From Giesbergeria anulus (lineage in GTDB: Bacteria > Pseudomonadota > Gammaproteobacteria > Burkholderiales > Burkholderiaceae_C), in assembly GCF_900111115.1 (NCBI RefSeq), contig NZ_FOGD01000001.1:490910-554909 (forward strand): DNA of 64,000 nucleotides, given 5' to 3'. Positions 30,206 to 36,856 of the stretch are shown piece after piece. The number at the start of each line of letters is the position of its first letter. Positions within the stretch are counted from its first letter, which is position 1. The notes below the pieces were generated by a model. That model did not search any database, was not told the origin of the DNA, and was given only the letters and a program-made list of their open reading frames with translations. Made by a program: the position numbers and the translations under genes.

Positions 30206-30343
30206 ATGCAGCGCTCTTTCATAGAAAAAATTCTGCGGTTTGCCTACAGCGCCAAGCCCAAAATTATTATCTGTTTGGGCTTTTTGCTGGTGGCCCTCCT
30301 TGTTTATCAGGGAGAGTTAGGGGGAAGCGGTTATGAGCGATGA
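30206..30343 (+). CDS. 45-aa single-pass membrane peptide overlapping the hemerythrin gene
   Basis: A short ORF with AGGGG seven bases before the ATG. The product has an amphipathic basic N-terminus (QRSFIEKILRFAYSAKPK), one hydrophobic segment at about residues 19-34 and a Gly-rich end. Its last eleven bases overlap the hemerythrin start (30333), so translation of the two is probably coupled. A real gene is suggested by ribosome site, hydrophobic helix and overlap; function unknown, possibly a membrane anchor or partner for the hemerythrin. Confidence 0.6.
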   Translation: MQRSFIEKILRFAYSAKPKIIICLGFLLVALLVYQGELGGSGYER

Positions 30344-30770
30344 ACACGTCCTGTACTGGAGTCCAGCACTGAGCGTAGGCAATGCTGATCTGGATGCACA
30401 GCACATCATCTTGCTAGAAATTGGCCGTGACATGATCGAACTGTTGGATCATGGCGGCGCAGCCCAGCCGCGTCTGTGGTCGTTATTGAACGATTTTTTT
30501 GTCATTGCCAACCACCACGATGCCCTAGAAGAAAAGGTGCTGGCTGCAAATGGCTACCCCAGTTTGCCTGAGCACCGTGCAGAGCATGTTCGGGCCAGAG
30601 AGCATATTCATACCGCCCTGTGTGAGGCGGCAGAACAACGCCTCAACCAAGGCCGCTTGCGCCAAGCGCTCATGAATTGGATGCACCATCACCTTAGTGA
30701 GATGGATCTCAATGCCAAGCCGTTTTTGCGCCACCACGAACACCAGCCGGAGGCGGCGCTGGCCTGCTAA
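30333..30770 (+). CDS. Bacteriohemerythrin
   Basis: A 145-aa four-helix protein that should bind O2 at a di-iron centre. Ligands appear in the expected order: H24 (DAQH), H62 and E66 (NHHDALEEK), H81 and H85 (EHRAEH), H120 and D125 (WMHHHLSEMD). The opening YWSPALSVGNADLDAQH is family-typical. It follows and overlaps a 45-aa membrane peptide and ends convergent with the unknown 430-aa gene, 11 bp away. Possible roles are O2 storage, sensing or delivery. Confidence 0.9.
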   Translation: MSDEHVLYWSPALSVGNADLDAQHIILLEIGRDMIELLDHGGAAQPRLWSLLNDFFVIANHHDALEEKVLAANGYPSLPEHRAEHVRAREHIHTALCEAAEQRLNQGRLRQALMNWMHHHLSEMDLNAKPFLRHHEHQPEAALAC

Positions 30771-30781
30771 AAGCAACTGAT

Positions 30782-32074
30782 TCAACCAACGATATGGCAC
30801 TCGCGGCGTAGCAGCGCCAGCGCTTCTTGGCGCTGACCGTGGTGGTCACCGCACAAAGTGCGGCGGGACTCTTCAACAAAGCTCTGCCACAAGGCGCAGT
30901 AGGTACCTTGGTGCAACACCGGGGCGTGGCTGCGGATAAAGTCCAGCGCCTGCTCAGGGTGTAGGCCGCGTTGGTGGATAGAACGCAGCAGGGCCACGGC
31001 GGCCTTTTCGGTCAGCAGGGTTTTGTCTGCGGGCACATAACGTTTGGGCGCACCCACCGACAGGTACAAAAACAGCGTCAGCAGGGCATGTTCGTCTTGC
31101 TGGCCTTGGGTGACGCGCTGCCACGTCTTGCTGCCACTGCTGGGAGGCACTTCTTGGTGGTGGCCGTGGGCCTCATCGTCTAAGCTGTGGTGGTAATGCT
31201 CGATCTCGGCCAGCGGGTCTTCTAGCCAGAAATAATGGCCGTTAAACGCCGGGCTGCGCAGCAAAATGCGCAGGTTTTGGCTGGGGTCGCGCAAGCGTGG
31301 CAAATCGGCCAGCACGCTGGCACGCACGCGCTCCACCACCTCGCGCAGTTCTGCCGGGAACTGTGCAGGCAGTGGCAGGGTGATGGGGCCAGTCTTTTTG
31401 CGCAGCGTAGCGATCAAGGCTTCAAAAGCTACGGTATCAGGCCATTGTTGCGCCTTGGGAGCTAGGGTGTGCAGCAGCAAGCCGGTGCGAATCACCGCTT
31501 CGGCATCGGTGCCCGCTTCTTCCAAATCGTCGGCCTGCAAATCAAAACGGGCTGCTAACCACAACGCGGCGTCGATCAGTTGGCCGATGGGCTGGCGCAC
31601 GGCCAGTTCGGCTTGGTACTGGGCATGGCTTTGCAGGCTCCATTTGGCCAGTTGCGGAATTTGGGCCTCGGTAAAGCCTTCGCGGTCGTGCATCGCAAAG
31701 TGGGTATTTTGCGGCATGGCGATGAGATTTTTCAGCATCTCGGAGCCGCCTTTGGAGCGCGACAACAGGCTGTGGTCGCGCAGAGATTGCGCCGCCAGAT
31801 GCAGCTCGCCGCCGCAACTTTCCAGCAGGTACAAACTCACCAGATTGACAATGCGCAGCCGCGCCTGTTCCAAATCGGGGCGCAAGTTCTCGTTGCCAAA
31901 GTAGCGGGCAATTTGCACCATGCCCTTGGGGGCTTCGGTGCAGATGGCGTCTAGTTTGGCGGCACTCAGCAAGCCGTGCTGCACACCGTAGGCCAGCGCC
32001 TTTTCAAAGAACGGGCGAGCATCGTGCAGCGACAGCGCAGAGGCGGTAGGGGTCGTAGGGGCCGAAGCGGACAT
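30782..32074 (-). CDS. Unknown 430-aa protein, last gene of the J-domain operon
   Basis: No family recognised. The protein is soluble and mainly helical. The N-terminal 200 residues contain FFEKALAYGVQHGLLS and a Leu-rich region (RIVNLVSLYLLESCGGELHLA). A His-rich patch, HYHHSLDDEAHGHH, lies near residue 300. The C-terminus ends in a cluster of Arg and His. ATG 32074 is preferred over the TTG two codons earlier. Only 14 bp separate it from the upstream acidic protein, placing it in one transcript with the J-domain gene. Confidence 0.7.
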   Translation of the reverse strand: MSASAPTTPTASALSLHDARPFFEKALAYGVQHGLLSAAKLDAICTEAPKGMVQIARYFGNENLRPDLEQARLRIVNLVSLYLLESCGGELHLAAQSLRDHSLLSRSKGGSEMLKNLIAMPQNTHFAMHDREGFTEAQIPQLAKWSLQSHAQYQAELAVRQPIGQLIDAALWLAARFDLQADDLEEAGTDAEAVIRTGLLLHTLAPKAQQWPDTVAFEALIATLRKKTGPITLPLPAQFPAELREVVERVRASVLADLPRLRDPSQNLRILLRSPAFNGHYFWLEDPLAEIEHYHHSLDDEAHGHHQEVPPSSGSKTWQRVTQGQQDEHALLTLFLYLSVGAPKRYVPADKTLLTEKAAVALLRSIHQRGLHPEQALDFIRSHAPVLHQGTYCALWQSFVEESRRTLCGDHHGQRQEALALLRRECHIVG

Positions 32075-32088
32075 AGGCAATGCGGCTT

Positions 32089-32838
32089 TCAGATGGCCGA
32101 TTCTTCGTCCGGGTCACGGGCCACGGGGGTGGCTTTGCCTCGGTCGGTGTCGCGGGTTTCAAACTTGCCGTCGTCTTCTTCGGCTTCTTCCTCTTCACCT
32201 AGGCCCAAATCGTGGGCGCGGGCCTTGGCGCGCAGCACCAGTAGCATTTCAATGAACAGGTCGCGGCATTCGTAGCGCAGCAGCCAAGCCAACTCCATCC
32301 AGTCGCTATCGGCCACTTCTTCTTGGGTGATGTGCGCGCGCACGTAGGCTGAAGCGCGCAGTTCGTCGTCACTGAGCAGGTCGCCGTCGTCTTCGATGGT
32401 GTCAAAGTGGCCGGTACGGGCAAAGGCTTCAATGCGGCTCCACTTTTCGGCAAAGTAGTTCGCCAAGGCTTCGCTGCCGCCTTCCAAATCACCAATCGCT
32501 TCCAAAAACTCCAGCGGGTCAGCCCCATCACGGAAGATGATGCCATTGACCATGCCGCGCAGGTGGGTGTGCGAGAGGTCTTTGTACTGCTTTTCTAGCA
32601 CCAAAGCGCGGGCAAACTGCTCCGGGGTAATGAGCAAGTTGACCACGGAGTCGCGTGAGGAGTCGTATTCACGGATCACGGCCAGCACGTCTTTGGCCGG
32701 CAGTTGGGCGATGACTTCCATCAGGGCGTGGTCGCCTTCGGTGTCGGCCAGTTCGGCCAGTGCGTATTCGGCACCAACGATGTCGCCGGAGGCGATCAGG
32801 CTTTGGGTTTGGGTAATGAGGGCCAAATGGTTGCTCAT
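32089..32838 (-). CDS. Unknown 249-aa acidic helical protein of the J-domain operon
   Basis: No family recognised. It has a helical N-terminus with an ALAELADTEGDHALMEVIAQ repeat-like helix pair, a middle part with the HLRGMVNGIIF segment, and a C-terminal Glu/Asp run (GEEEEAEEDDGK) followed by a charged tail. AGGAG lies before the ATG. It is 20 bp downstream of the 190-aa gene. The overall acidity resembles that of client-holding or assembly factors, but this is speculation. Confidence 0.7.
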   Translation of the reverse strand: MSNHLALITQTQSLIASGDIVGAEYALAELADTEGDHALMEVIAQLPAKDVLAVIREYDSSRDSVVNLLITPEQFARALVLEKQYKDLSHTHLRGMVNGIIFRDGADPLEFLEAIGDLEGGSEALANYFAEKWSRIEAFARTGHFDTIEDDGDLLSDDELRASAYVRAHITQEEVADSDWMELAWLLRYECRDLFIEMLLVLRAKARAHDLGLGEEEEAEEDDGKFETRDTDRGKATPVARDPDEESAI

Positions 32839-32858
32839 GGGTGGCTCCTTGGTGCTGC

Positions 32859-33431
32859 TCAGTCTTTACGGTCAAAGCCTTGGCCGGACAACCAGTCATC
32901 ACTGGCTTCGTCGCGGCTGCGCTCGTCTTGCGGGTCGGTGGCGTCGTCGGCGCTCAGGGGTTGGGCGTTGTCGTCATCGCTGTCTTCGCGGTCTTCAGCG
33001 TTGTCGTCGTCTTCCTCCACGGCGGCAGGGGCCAAACCTAGGCGGGGGTGCTGTTGCAGGTACTCTAGGCAAGCGGCCACGGCCAGAAACCAAGCGCCTT
33101 GCGGTTCTTGCAGCACGCGCTGTGCCAGCGGCTGCGCCCAAGTTTCTAAGGTCACAGCGGAGGCCAGCTCCGTCCAGTCGGGTTGCGTGCCCTCCTCGGT
33201 CAAAAAGCGCTCTAGAGTGCTTGCAGCGCTGCCAAAGCGGAAGGCACGGTGAAAGACTACCGCCACCATTTCGGGGCTGAGTTCGATCATCTGCACCAGA
33301 AAATCGAGTTCTTTGCGTTTGTCAGCCAAGCGTTTGCGCAGTACGTCTTTGCCTTCGGAGTCGGAGGTCAGGTCGTCCAATTCAGCTTGGTAAGCAGAGC
33401 GCAGGGGATGGAAAAAAGAGGTCAGTCGCAT
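32859..33431 (-). CDS. Unknown 190-aa acidic protein of the J-domain operon
   Basis: No family recognised. Residues 1-130 are helical (RKRLADKRKELDFLVQMIEL; later a Trp-containing helix before PRLGLAP). Residues 135-175 are an acidic, probably disordered run (EEDDDNAEDREDSDDDN). The end, DDWLSGQGFDRKD, is less acidic. It lies 45 bp after the J-domain gene. The shared acidic tails of this and the next gene suggest a common interaction surface. Confidence 0.7.
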   Translation of the reverse strand: MRLTSFFHPLRSAYQAELDDLTSDSEGKDVLRKRLADKRKELDFLVQMIELSPEMVAVVFHRAFRFGSAASTLERFLTEEGTQPDWTELASAVTLETWAQPLAQRVLQEPQGAWFLAVAACLEYLQQHPRLGLAPAAVEEDDDNAEDREDSDDDNAQPLSADDATDPQDERSRDEASDDWLSGQGFDRKD

Positions 33432-33476
33432 GGATTTTTACAAAAAAATGGGGGGGAAGAACGTAGGCCAGTGGCC

Positions 33477-33773
33477 TTAGCGCGGCGGCTGAATATCGGC
33501 CAGCACCTGCTGAAAATACCCTTTCCAGATGGCTTGGGCGGTTTCTAGCGGGTCATCGAGCAGGTTGCGGCGGCGGTTGTCATCGTAGGCTTGGCGCTGC
33601 TCAGGGTCGGACAGCACTTCGTAGGCTTGTTGCACGGCACGAAAGCGGGCCGCAGCGTCGGGCGCGGGGTTTTTGTCCGGGTGATAGAACGATGCTTTTT
33701 GCCGAAAGGCTTTTTTGATGTCGGCCAGCGAGGCATCGCTGCCCAGCCCTAGGGCGGCGTAGTGGTCTGTCAT
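33477..33773 (-). CDS. Minimal J-domain (DnaJ-like) protein
   Basis: A 98-aa protein made almost entirely of a J domain: helix I (HYAALGLGSDASLADIKKAF), the HPD motif at H31-P32-D33, and helices III-IV (ARFRAVQQAYEVLSDPEQRQAY). About 30 residues follow (ETAQAIWKGYFQQVLADI). There is no Gly/Phe region, zinc finger or substrate domain, so it would stimulate a DnaK/Hsp70 ATPase only for clients brought by partners. Its neighbours are four unknown proteins, likely those partners. Confidence 0.9.
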   Translation of the reverse strand: MTDHYAALGLGSDASLADIKKAFRQKASFYHPDKNPAPDAAARFRAVQQAYEVLSDPEQRQAYDDNRRRNLLDDPLETAQAIWKGYFQQVLADIQPPR

Positions 33774-33803
33774 GCGGGGGGAGTTTTATCCAAAAGAGAG
33801 AAA

Positions 33804-34181
33804 TTATTCTGCATCCAGCCCAAAACGCGCCCGCAGGGCTTGGGCAAAGGCGGCACTGCCACTGAGGGTGAGCGTCAGGGTGTAGCGGGCTTGGGGGTCG
33901 GGGGGCTGGGCCAAAGTGATCTGCCCGGCCTCTTCATCGTAGTGCAGACGCAAGGCGGGGGCACCGCCCTCTGGCTGGCTTTGTAGGTCGTAATCCCACA
34001 GGCCATCCTCATCCAGCGGGCCCCGCTGGCCGCAAAATTGCTGCTGCGCCCAGTTGAGCACCACGGTGATCTCGGTCAGCAGGGCAGGCAGACGCTGCGT
34101 TGTGACCGAGGCCATCGCATCCCAAGTGCTGATGCCCTGATCGTCTTCACTGTAGTCAAAATCGAGGTAAGACAAGGTCAT
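33804..34181 (-). CDS. Unknown 125-aa protein, first gene of the J-domain operon
   Basis: No named family. It begins with an acidic segment, SYLDFDYSEDDQGISTWDAM, followed by a helix (LPALLTEITVVLNWAQQQF) and then beta-like repeats (LRLHYDEEAGQITLAQPP, RYTLTLTLSGSAAFAQALRA). A small globular alpha/beta fold is likely. It lies 30 bp before the J-domain gene and appears to lead the five-gene operon; the 99 bp upstream, shared with the divergent ABC gene, should hold both promoters. Confidence 0.75.
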   Translation of the reverse strand: MTLSYLDFDYSEDDQGISTWDAMASVTTQRLPALLTEITVVLNWAQQQFCGQRGPLDEDGLWDYDLQSQPEGGAPALRLHYDEEAGQITLAQPPDPQARYTLTLTLSGSAAFAQALRARFGLDAE

Positions 34182-34280: not shown

Positions 34281-34916
34281 ATGGACGATAAAGCCGCAGT
34301 GCTGCAAGTGCATGAGATGTGTTTTAGCTACCCAGAGCGCCCGCTGTGGGCGCATTGGTCGGGCACCGTGGGGCAGGGTGCAACACTGGTGCTAGGTGGC
34401 GATGGCAGTGGCAAAACCACCTTACTGCAATTGCTAGCCGGTGATGTACTAGTTGATTCTGGCACGCTCACGCTGGCGGGTGTGGCGCTGCACGAAGATA
34501 CCCCAGCGTACCGCCAGCAGGTGTTCTGGCAAGACCCGCGCTCATCCGCCCTAGATGCCTTGAGCGTGCAACAGTGGTGGGACACTCTACCCGCTCGCTA
34601 CAGCCGCTGGGATGCAACCGCATTAGCGGCCCATATTGCAGGCTTTGCGCTGCAACCCCACTTGGACAAAGCCCTGTACCAGCTCTCGGCAGGCACTCGG
34701 CGCAAGGTGTTGATGGCAGCGGCGCTGGCGTCCGGGGCCACGCTCACTTTGATCGATGAGCCTGTGGCTGGACTGGATCGTGCCTCGGTGCGGTACCTGC
34801 AACAGGCGCTGGCCGATGCGGCAGCGCAGCCCGGTCGTGCCTTGGTCGTGGCCCACTACGAGGCGCTAGATGGCGTGCCGTGGGCACAAGTAATCGAACT
34901 GCCTGACGAGGCTTGA
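34281..34916 (+). CDS. Orphan ABC transporter ATPase subunit
   Basis: A 211-aa ATPase. Walker A is GGDGSGKTT, the Q-loop region reads QQVFWQDPR, the signature is degenerate (QLSAGTRRK instead of LSGGQ), Walker B is LTLIDEP and the H-loop is VVAHYE. GGAG precedes the ATG. No permease or binding protein is adjacent; the gene stands between the J-domain operon and a convergent two-component operon. It may serve a membrane partner elsewhere or a non-transport role. Confidence 0.85.
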   Translation: MDDKAAVLQVHEMCFSYPERPLWAHWSGTVGQGATLVLGGDGSGKTTLLQLLAGDVLVDSGTLTLAGVALHEDTPAYRQQVFWQDPRSSALDALSVQQWWDTLPARYSRWDATALAAHIAGFALQPHLDKALYQLSAGTRRKVLMAAALASGATLTLIDEPVAGLDRASVRYLQQALADAAAQPGRALVVAHYEALDGVPWAQVIELPDEA

Positions 34917-34930
34917 ATTGGCAGTGGGCC

Positions 34931-35746
34931 TCACATGGCCTTAAAACGGTGCACATACAGCCTGCTCACGGTCAGTTTTTCTGGACGCTGGCGCAGTTGC
35001 AGGTGCAATCGACCGGCCTCATCGCGCATCACAGTGGCAATGGCGCTGGCACGCACCAGTACCGCCCGATGTACTTGCCAGAATATTTCCGAATCCAGTT
35101 GTGCTGCCAACTCTTTGAGAGGGGTGCGAATCAAAAATTCACGCTCGGCGGTCAGTACGCGCACATACTTGTCAGCCGCTTCAAAATACAGCACGTCCGA
35201 GACCGGAACCAAGTGTAGATGTGGCCCGCTACTGGCTTGAATCACCGTGAGCAGTGGGCGTGGTGGTGGCACCGCGATAGCGCTTGCCAAGCCCGGCACC
35301 GCCAGCAGTTGGCGCAGTTGTTCTACAGTGGCGTCGAGCGCTGGTGTGGCGGGTAATGGCTGCTGACGCAACTGCTGGAGTCTGTGTACTGTTTTTTGCA
35401 ATCGCGCCGTCTGTATCGGTTTGAGCAGATAGTCCACAGCCTGCGCTTCAAAAGCCTGCACAGCATATTGTTCGTAAGCGGTAACCAGCACCAAGGCCGG
35501 AAAAGGCAGGTCAGCAGGCCAAGCATCCGCCAGTTGGGCTGCAGCTTCCAAACCCGTCTGGCCCGGCATCCGAATATCGAAGAACAACACATCGGGGCGC
35601 AATGCCAATGCCTGTTCCACGGCGCTGATGCCATCGCCCACCGTGGCCACAATGTGCAAATCAGGCCACACCTGACGCAGCGCGTGCTCTAGGGCGGCGG
35701 CCAACAGCGGTTCGTCTTCGGCAATCAAGGCGCGGGGTGCAGTCAT
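34931..35746 (-). CDS. LytTR-family response regulator (AlgR-like)
   Basis: A 271-aa regulator. The N-terminal receiver has the acidic pocket AEDEP, phospho-acceptor D57 in DVLFFDIRMPG, and the AVDYLLKPI lysine loop. A Gln/Leu-rich linker follows, then a LytTR DNA-binding domain at about 165-270 (VLYFEAADKYVRVLTAEREFLIRTPL). It overlaps the kinase gene by 4 nt, and the pair is cotranscribed from DUF2306. AlgR of pseudomonads is the closest build; targets here are unknown. Confidence 0.92.
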   Translation of the reverse strand: MTAPRALIAEDEPLLAAALEHALRQVWPDLHIVATVGDGISAVEQALALRPDVLFFDIRMPGQTGLEAAAQLADAWPADLPFPALVLVTAYEQYAVQAFEAQAVDYLLKPIQTARLQKTVHRLQQLRQQPLPATPALDATVEQLRQLLAVPGLASAIAVPPPRPLLTVIQASSGPHLHLVPVSDVLYFEAADKYVRVLTAEREFLIRTPLKELAAQLDSEIFWQVHRAVLVRASAIATVMRDEAGRLHLQLRQRPEKLTVSRLYVHRFKAM

Positions 35747-36825
35747 GTGGGGCAGGTCTCAGGCAGTAAGGGCAAGGTGATGCTGGCGCTGGTACCCCCT
35801 GCACTCACGGCAGCAAGCTCCAGCGTTGCAGCAGGGCCGTGCAGGGTACTTAGCCGTTCACGCACTTGGGCCAAACCAAAGTGGCAGCCCTCTTGCGGCG
35901 GGAAAGGTGCCGCAGCCGTGGCCGCCAGACCGACACCATTGTCCAGCACCTGCAATTGCAGCAGGCGCGTGGGGGCTGCCTCTATGACACGGGCCTGCAC
36001 CAGCAGGTGTCCACCTTGCACCTGTGGCTCCAAGCCGTGGCGGATAGCGTTCTCCACCAAGGGCTGAAGCAGCAGCGGGGGCACAGGAAGATCGCGCAGG
36101 GCATCGGGCAAGTCCAGCTTGTAAGTTAACCGTGCTCCCATGCGTACAGCCATGATTTCCAGATAGTCGCGCACCCGTTCAAATTCTTCGGCCAAGGGGT
36201 GTTGTGTGCTGCGCGAGCCACCCAGGGTAGCTCGCAAATAGGCGATCAGGTGCTCCAACAGAGTTTGGGCGCGTGCCGGATCGGTGGCTATCAAGATATG
36301 CAAATTGGCCAAGGTGTTAAACACCATGTGCGGCTCCAATTGAACCTCCAGTAATTTCAGGCGCGCCTGTGCGGCATCGCGTTGAGCCAAGGCCATTTGC
36401 GTTTCCAGAAACCGGGCCTTGCCCCGGCTGTAGAAAAAGAACGACATGACCGCACTAGCCACTACGGTGATCGCCAAGGTCAAGGCAGCACCATGCGGTG
36501 GCCACAGAGGCAGTGCCTGCGGGCGGCCACCGCCGCTATAGGCATCCCCCAGCGCGTTCCCAAGTACAAAGCCACTGCTTATCCCCAGCGCCAGCAGTAC
36601 CCCTGCACGCCAGCCTTGAGGCCACGCGATGGCTTGGGCACGGCACCACCAGCACCGGCCCAGATCAATCACCAGCCAACTGATCAGTCCAATAGACAGA
36701 GAATAGACGAGCGCAACGTCCCAAGTGCTGTGTTGGGCGAACACCAGCGCCAAGGCGATCAAGCCACAGCACAGGGCAGTAGCCAGCCCGTGGCCCAAAA
36801 AAGCGCGTAAATCAAAATGATGCAT
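35743..36825 (-). CDS. LytS/AlgZ-type sensor histidine kinase
   Basis: A 360-aa membrane kinase. Four hydrophobic segments lie in the first 160 residues, then a short coiled coil, then the His_kinase (PF06580-type) H-box VQLEPHMVFNTLANL and an ATPase domain with LLLQPLVENAIRHGL and LQVLDNGVGL. ATG 36825 is used; the TTG 27 bases upstream is less likely. No extracellular sensory domain is visible, so the signal is probably sensed in or near the membrane. Confidence 0.9.
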   Translation of the reverse strand: MHHFDLRAFLGHGLATALCCGLIALALVFAQHSTWDVALVYSLSIGLISWLVIDLGRCWWCRAQAIAWPQGWRAGVLLALGISSGFVLGNALGDAYSGGGRPQALPLWPPHGAALTLAITVVASAVMSFFFYSRGKARFLETQMALAQRDAAQARLKLLEVQLEPHMVFNTLANLHILIATDPARAQTLLEHLIAYLRATLGGSRSTQHPLAEEFERVRDYLEIMAVRMGARLTYKLDLPDALRDLPVPPLLLQPLVENAIRHGLEPQVQGGHLLVQARVIEAAPTRLLQLQVLDNGVGLAATAAAPFPPQEGCHFGLAQVRERLSTLHGPAATLELAAVSAGGTSASITLPLLPETCPT

Positions 36826-36856
36826 GATTTGGGAGGGTAAACGATGGCACAAGAAC

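Follow-up and report, generated by a model that had tools for sequence, protein, structure and literature searches.

The question raised by this locus is to which system a minimal J-domain protein of Giesbergeria anulus, and the unassigned proteins encoded beside it, belong. The genes lie on the reverse strand of the analysed stretch of 64,000 nucleotides (the window; RefSeq assembly GCF_900111115.1, contig NZ_FOGD01000001.1, positions 490,910 to 554,909), and positions below are those of the window. A sequence-only reading had proposed a five-gene operon that might represent an undescribed co-chaperone system. On the evidence of profile comparisons, the J-protein gene forms with the three genes 3' of it a distant relative of atcJABC, the homology being shown here; in Shewanella oneidensis atcJABC is described as a DnaK/J-protein operon for cold adaptation (SO_1850, SO_1849, SO_1848 and SO_1846; PMC6715715). 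We regard it as probable that the genes at 33773-30782 (-) are a betaproteobacterial atcJABC operon with the AtcJ-DnaK / AtcC-AtcB mechanism for cold growth proposed below.

Relatives of the window's genes were collected with an AtcB alignment, which was scanned against single genomes representing 84,980 species and gave 377 pattern matches, 324 of them confirmed as relatives. The best 80 of these 324 were named as loci and, together with the window, form the beta sets of J, A and B proteins (n=81). For comparison, gammaproteobacterial operons were reached through the NCBIfam AtcC model, which matched 44 of 345 genomes of one order, 40 of them above the cut-off, the order sampled having been picked from a phylum-wide SeqA draw. 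Eight of these 40, spread over four families, make up the gamma set and three or four weaker matches an intermediate set. At class level no Shewanella-type gamma operon was obtained: the sole match of the AtcC draw was the window's own, and the SeqA draw found no SeqA in 114 genomes.

The order J-A-B-C was present in all eight gamma operons, with B assigned by position and length. The beta J profile found the gamma J protein in 8/8 operons (E 3e-16 to 4e-20), the beta A profile found gamma A in 8/8 (E 0.004 to 7e-12) and the beta C profile found gamma C in 7/8 (E 0.02 to 4e-8). In direct profile-profile comparisons, beta profiles of 81 sequences for A and B and of 74 for C were set against those of the eight gamma operons and gave E values of 6.9e-6 for A, 0.0027 for B and 7.7e-7 for C, against 0.077-0.49 for six mismatched pairs. 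When a more remote Burkholderiales set (f205, described below) was joined to the beta profiles and the intermediate set to the gamma profiles, the values were 3.1e-6 over 112 columns for A, 6e-8 over 210 columns for B and 5.1e-11 over 192 columns for C, with six mismatched pooled pairs at 0.025-0.75.

Single proteins of the window gave concordant matches to the NCBIfam models. The 98-amino-acid (aa) protein aligned over residues 1-87 to positions 1-93 of 93 in AtcJ, the 190-aa protein matched AtcA over residues 43-174 (E 7.8e-6), and the 430-aa protein matched AtcC over residues 18-114 only (E 0.0012). When matches with E values up to 1 were admitted, 7/8 relatives of the 190-aa protein and 7/7 relatives of the 430-aa protein matched the same models.

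Several results weigh against the assignment. The NCBIfam scores were 57.5 bits for AtcJ (cut-off 150), 25.8 bits for AtcA (cut-off 200) and 18.4 bits for AtcC (cut-off 370), and several general DnaJ models outscored AtcJ on the 98-aa protein, with up to 81 bits. The beta AtcB profile found gamma AtcB in only one of eight operons (E 0.023), beta AtcA resembled neither intermediate nor f205 AtcA (E 0.38 and 0.42, respectively), and beta AtcC reached intermediate AtcC with an E value of 0.029 only. The beta AtcC proteins are also about 120-130 residues longer than the gamma ones, and the P-x7-W motif considered below is missing from one of five f205 and three of 11 distant Burkholderiales J proteins. 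Because J, A and C fall below the curated NCBIfam cut-offs, they are remote homologues and not members of the AtcJ, AtcA and AtcC equivalogs. By direct comparison AtcB is, at the level of sequence profiles, the weakest homology link, and NCBIfam AtcB was matched neither by the window's 249-aa protein nor by any other member of its family. The other NCBIfam matches of the AtcB set (type III secretion system ATPases, phosphoenolpyruvate mutase and others) involved one or two of the eight members each and seem to be chance.

An operon assembled by convergence around a J protein, non-homologous to atcJABC, would account for the matches under the cut-offs and for the weak direct AtcB similarity of 0.0027. 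We consider this very improbable, since A and C match independently and in the matching order, the pooled AtcB comparison is far more significant than the mismatched pairs (no better than 0.025), and P-x7-W is shared. The proposal of an undescribed system did not hold, as gene order, P-x7-W and the A, B and C profiles all match Shewanella atcJABC.

The five adjacent minus-strand open reading frames (ORFs) and the short gaps between them were confirmed; from the 125-aa gene to atcC the gaps are 30, 45, 20 and 14 base pairs (bp). The conserved block is one of four genes, J-A-B-C, and not five. Across seven further genomes of this family, the counterparts of J, A, B and C share 44-78% identity with the window's proteins and keep their order, so that the ORFs are not chance; C is present in six of the seven, the contig of the seventh stopping ahead of it. 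L050, a metagenome-assembled genome (MAG) of Burkholderiaceae, has an AtcB 100% identical to the window's, and the AtcB of L051, a Giesbergeria MAG, is 96% identical to it, which points to a probable source of the window in Comamonadaceae close to Giesbergeria. J, A and B occur together in 80/80 named loci and C in 73/80; in the seven loci without C the contig ends at most 1.1 kb from atcB, and the ORF caller lists closed frames only. The C frame of L099 is short and lies beside a contig end, and in L092, L124 and L125 the matched C stretch is short, at 230-248 residues. Three loci are listed as A-J-B-C because the A frame was given an over-long start. A, B and C were never seen without J in the loci examined, except at contig ends (L192, L201). 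This agrees with the suggestion of a dedicated DnaK co-chaperone set; the J protein and its partners are inherited as a block.

The 80 loci belong to Acidovorax, Rhodoferax, Simplicispira, Xylophilus, Giesbergeria, Comamonas and Polaromonas, besides unplaced MAGs. The distribution of the operon is patchy: AtcA was found in eight of 60 genomes drawn from the window's family and AtcB in 19 of 250 genomes of its order, five of these matches being weak. The f205 set is a remote atc-like group from other Burkholderiales families (L205-L209; genomes G481, G613, G578, G644 and G496), with a short AtcC and a different AtcB tail; A was not called in L205 and L209.

The 125-aa protein, which matches neither Pfam nor NCBIfam models, behaves differently. 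It was found in 20 of the 60 family genomes drawn for AtcA (21 matches, seven spanning only about residues 2-75), and 16 of these 20 had no AtcA match; in three of the four carrying both, the two genes are on separate contigs. Scattering away from the J gene, raised as a possible objection for all the partners, is thus seen for this gene and not, in the loci examined, for A, B or C. It could be held that the 125-aa protein is an additional Atc partner in this clade and the operon a five-gene unit, given the 30-bp gap, the shared strand and the same arrangement in L050-L052. Those three are nevertheless the only ones of 80 atc loci with the gene beside atc, although in 76/80 the sequence ahead of the J frame extends for 600 bp or more, and most genomes with the gene lack AtcA. 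We rejected the five-gene unit on these grounds, the gene not travelling with atc, and rate the additional-partner explanation as improbable. In the window an ABC ATPase gene (34281-34916) is divergent from the 125-aa gene, and in nine loci examined that lack atc the gene stands opposite a similar ABC ATPase in four (L042-L045). Because each of the three atc loci with the 125-aa gene also has the ABC gene opposite, atc in this small clade sits beside a separate 125-aa/ABC pair. Co-transcription of the 125-aa gene with atcJ in the source species is possible.

Among the five ORFs only the 98-aa one reaches a Pfam cut-off, with a strong J domain (PF00226, 83.5 bits; cut-off 27.8), one of three J-domain genes in the source genome. 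Its HPD loop is intact, as had been read from the sequence, and the J domain is predicted to be functional. In an alignment of eight J proteins P75-x7-W83 is invariant. P-x7-W occurs once per protein in 81/81 beta J proteins, 44 residues past HPD in 80 of them, and in 8/8 gamma, 3/3 intermediate, 4/5 f205 and 8/11 distant Burkholderiales J proteins, compared with 148 of 4,050 shuffled J-protein tails used as a control.

The acidic regions ascribed to two of the proteins were located as acidic stretches in the 190- and 249-aa proteins. The predicted structure of AtcB (predicted local distance difference test, pLDDT, 80.9; predicted template modelling score, pTM, 0.77) consists of helices up to about residue 210 and is disordered over 216-249. 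Across the 81 rows, many of which are close relatives, the mean share of the commonest letter is 0.85 for residues 1-210, 0.79 for residues 211-243 and 0.99 for the last six. These six read DEESAI in 78 beta proteins, DEELAI in two and DEEQAI in one. Other sets have short ends of their own: EE[S/L]A[I/L] in ten and DEDDVL in one of 11 distant Burkholderiales proteins, DDMFSFL[D/E] in seven and DEMFSFLD in one of eight gamma proteins, DDMFAPL in 4/4 intermediate and G[E/D/S]DIF[A/S] in 5/5 f205 proteins. Lying on a disordered acidic tail, the conserved end suggests a candidate docking peptide. Comparison of the AtcB model with the cytoplasmic N domain of MgtE gave Z 7.7 for 2oux_A (root-mean-square deviation 3.8, 140 aligned residues) and Z 7.7 for 8gpv (3.1, 122 aligned), and a profile match of AtcB to MgtE had an E value of 0.19.

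AtcC is predicted to be helical (pLDDT 89.2, pTM 0.70). It counts 430 aa from ATG, or 432 aa if TTG at 32080 is used, and the median matched length of beta AtcC is 416 residues compared with gamma frames of 296-306. The 3' part of atcC (30782-31240) codes for an additional helical part that Burkholderiales AtcC carries and for which no relatives were detected. In profile comparisons residues 280-430 resembled neither gamma AtcC nor A, B or the remaining part of AtcC; none of eight comparisons supported derivation of the extension from a copied AtcA, AtcB or other AtcC segment, the best of them (E 0.022, 59 columns) being to f205 AtcC. The histidine patch noted earlier does exist as HGHH in the 430-aa protein, although it is incidental: it occurs in one of 74 AtcC homologues, the window's own, and three histidines within any six residues occur in four of 74, and a metal site was rejected.

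No known fold could be assigned to AtcB or AtcC. Foldseek searches of PDB with either model returned nothing at E <= 0.001, and the best VIA-align Z scores (4.0 for AtcC, 7.7 for AtcB) are at the chance level for helical repeats. In profile searches of PDB, AtcC matched nothing, AtcB had three matches, with 6dtd_A as the best (E 0.072), and AtcA had a single one (60S L24, E 0.033); all were judged to be chance.

In Shewanella oneidensis, AtcJ contacts DnaK and AtcC, AtcC contacts AtcB, and a cold phenotype has been described (PMC6715715); a 2020 meeting report mentions that AtcB contacts RNA polymerase (PMC7871303). Transferred to the present operon, AtcJ would most likely bring DnaK to a complex of AtcC and AtcB, which may sit at RNA polymerase, in support of growth at low temperature. 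The HPD loop of the AtcJ J domain would engage DnaK and trigger ATP hydrolysis, and the P-x7-W segment would dock on AtcC, with the conserved N-terminal part as the probable site. AtcC would in turn bind AtcB, which through its helical core, its acidic tail with the conserved end or both may link the whole to a target, RNA polymerase being one possibility; DnaK acting at that target would allow the cell to grow in the cold, with AtcA as a putative accessory acidic protein. We infer that the Shewanella scheme holds in the Giesbergeria bacterium, with roles in it for the tail of AtcB and the extension of AtcC. The mechanism of Atc was described as still to be elucidated in a 2023 workshop report (PMC10939069).

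The correspondence with Shewanella covers the order J-A-B-C, a short HPD-bearing J protein (94 aa there, 98 aa here) with a short C-terminal extension, and similar sizes of AtcA (540 bp) and AtcB (759 bp) (PMC6715715); A, B and C here have profile similarity to their gamma relatives. Sequence identity is low, however, AtcC has 430 aa here compared with about 297 (model length), and AtcB ends in DEESAI instead of DDMFSFL[DE]. The cold function, known for Shewanella, is predicted here by homology. A further parallel, drawn in PMC6715715, is HscB-IscU, in which a class C J protein has one dedicated partner in its own operon; the partners differ and no Fe-S role is suggested here, so that the likeness is one of working and not of membership.

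The differences leave some room for a set of atcJABC ancestry that in Burkholderiales serves another DnaK-dependent process and not mainly cold growth. The diverged sequences, the additional part of AtcC and the different AtcB tail would fit such a change, and the Shewanella operon is itself not cold-induced, its authors allowing further roles (PMC6715715). The kept order, HPD and P-x7-W nevertheless point to the same J-to-C coupling, and we regard a change of process as possible, though on the unlikely side. Within the atcJABC assignment, we put forward quite tentatively that the Burkholderiales operons are a distinct sub-type, marked by their own helical part of AtcC (about 280-430) and an AtcB docking peptide DEESA[I/L] on the acidic tail. 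The tail might then serve to hook DnaK onto a large complex, for instance RNA polymerase, with the peptide tuned to the target of the lineage and the short ends of other lineages being analogous.

The partners of the mini J protein that had lacked an assignment can now be addressed as AtcA, AtcB and AtcC homologues, and the atc set extends well past its NCBIfam labelling, with 324 AtcB relatives in the species-genome scan. The tail of AtcB and the extension of AtcC are two testable features bearing on the target to which DnaK is brought at low temperature; no mention of either was met in the open literature on atc, in searches that did not name these features. By its title, a paper by Weber et al. 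2023 (Environ Microbiol, doi 10.1111/1462-2920.16478) reportedly describes a short J protein and partners conserved in environmental proteobacteria, and its abstract reportedly names beta- and gammaproteobacteria and the PX7W motif. The betaproteobacterial reach of atc has probably been covered there already. The features of the locus are collected in Table 1.

Table 1. Positions of the atc homologues and the adjoining 125-aa gene in the window.
Feature	Position	Strand	Evidence or remark
125-aa protein gene	33804..34181	-	ORF; neighbour, outside the atc block
atcJ, 98-aa J-domain protein	33477..33773	-	PF00226, HPD, P75-x7-W83 in short C-terminal extension
atcA homologue, 190 aa, C-terminal part acidic	32859..33431	-	NCBIfam AtcA below cut-off and profile-profile comparison
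atcB homologue, 249 aa, predicted helical core and disordered acidic tail ending in DEESAI	32089..32838	-	profile-profile comparison
DEESAI end of AtcB (last six atcB codons)	32092-32109	-	conserved
atcC homologue, 430 aa	30782..32074	-	NCBIfam AtcC below cut-off and profile-profile comparison

On the far side of atcC a gene for a 145-aa protein (30333-30770, +) is convergent with it and also adjoins atcC in L051. The protein has no Pfam family at E <= 0.001; by eye it resembles a bacteriohemerythrin. At the other end, a LytTR response regulator and His_kinase pair (34931-36852, -) lies near the ABC and 125-aa genes, and in L045 a regulator with a similar sequence start, as judged by eye, stands near the 125-aa gene.

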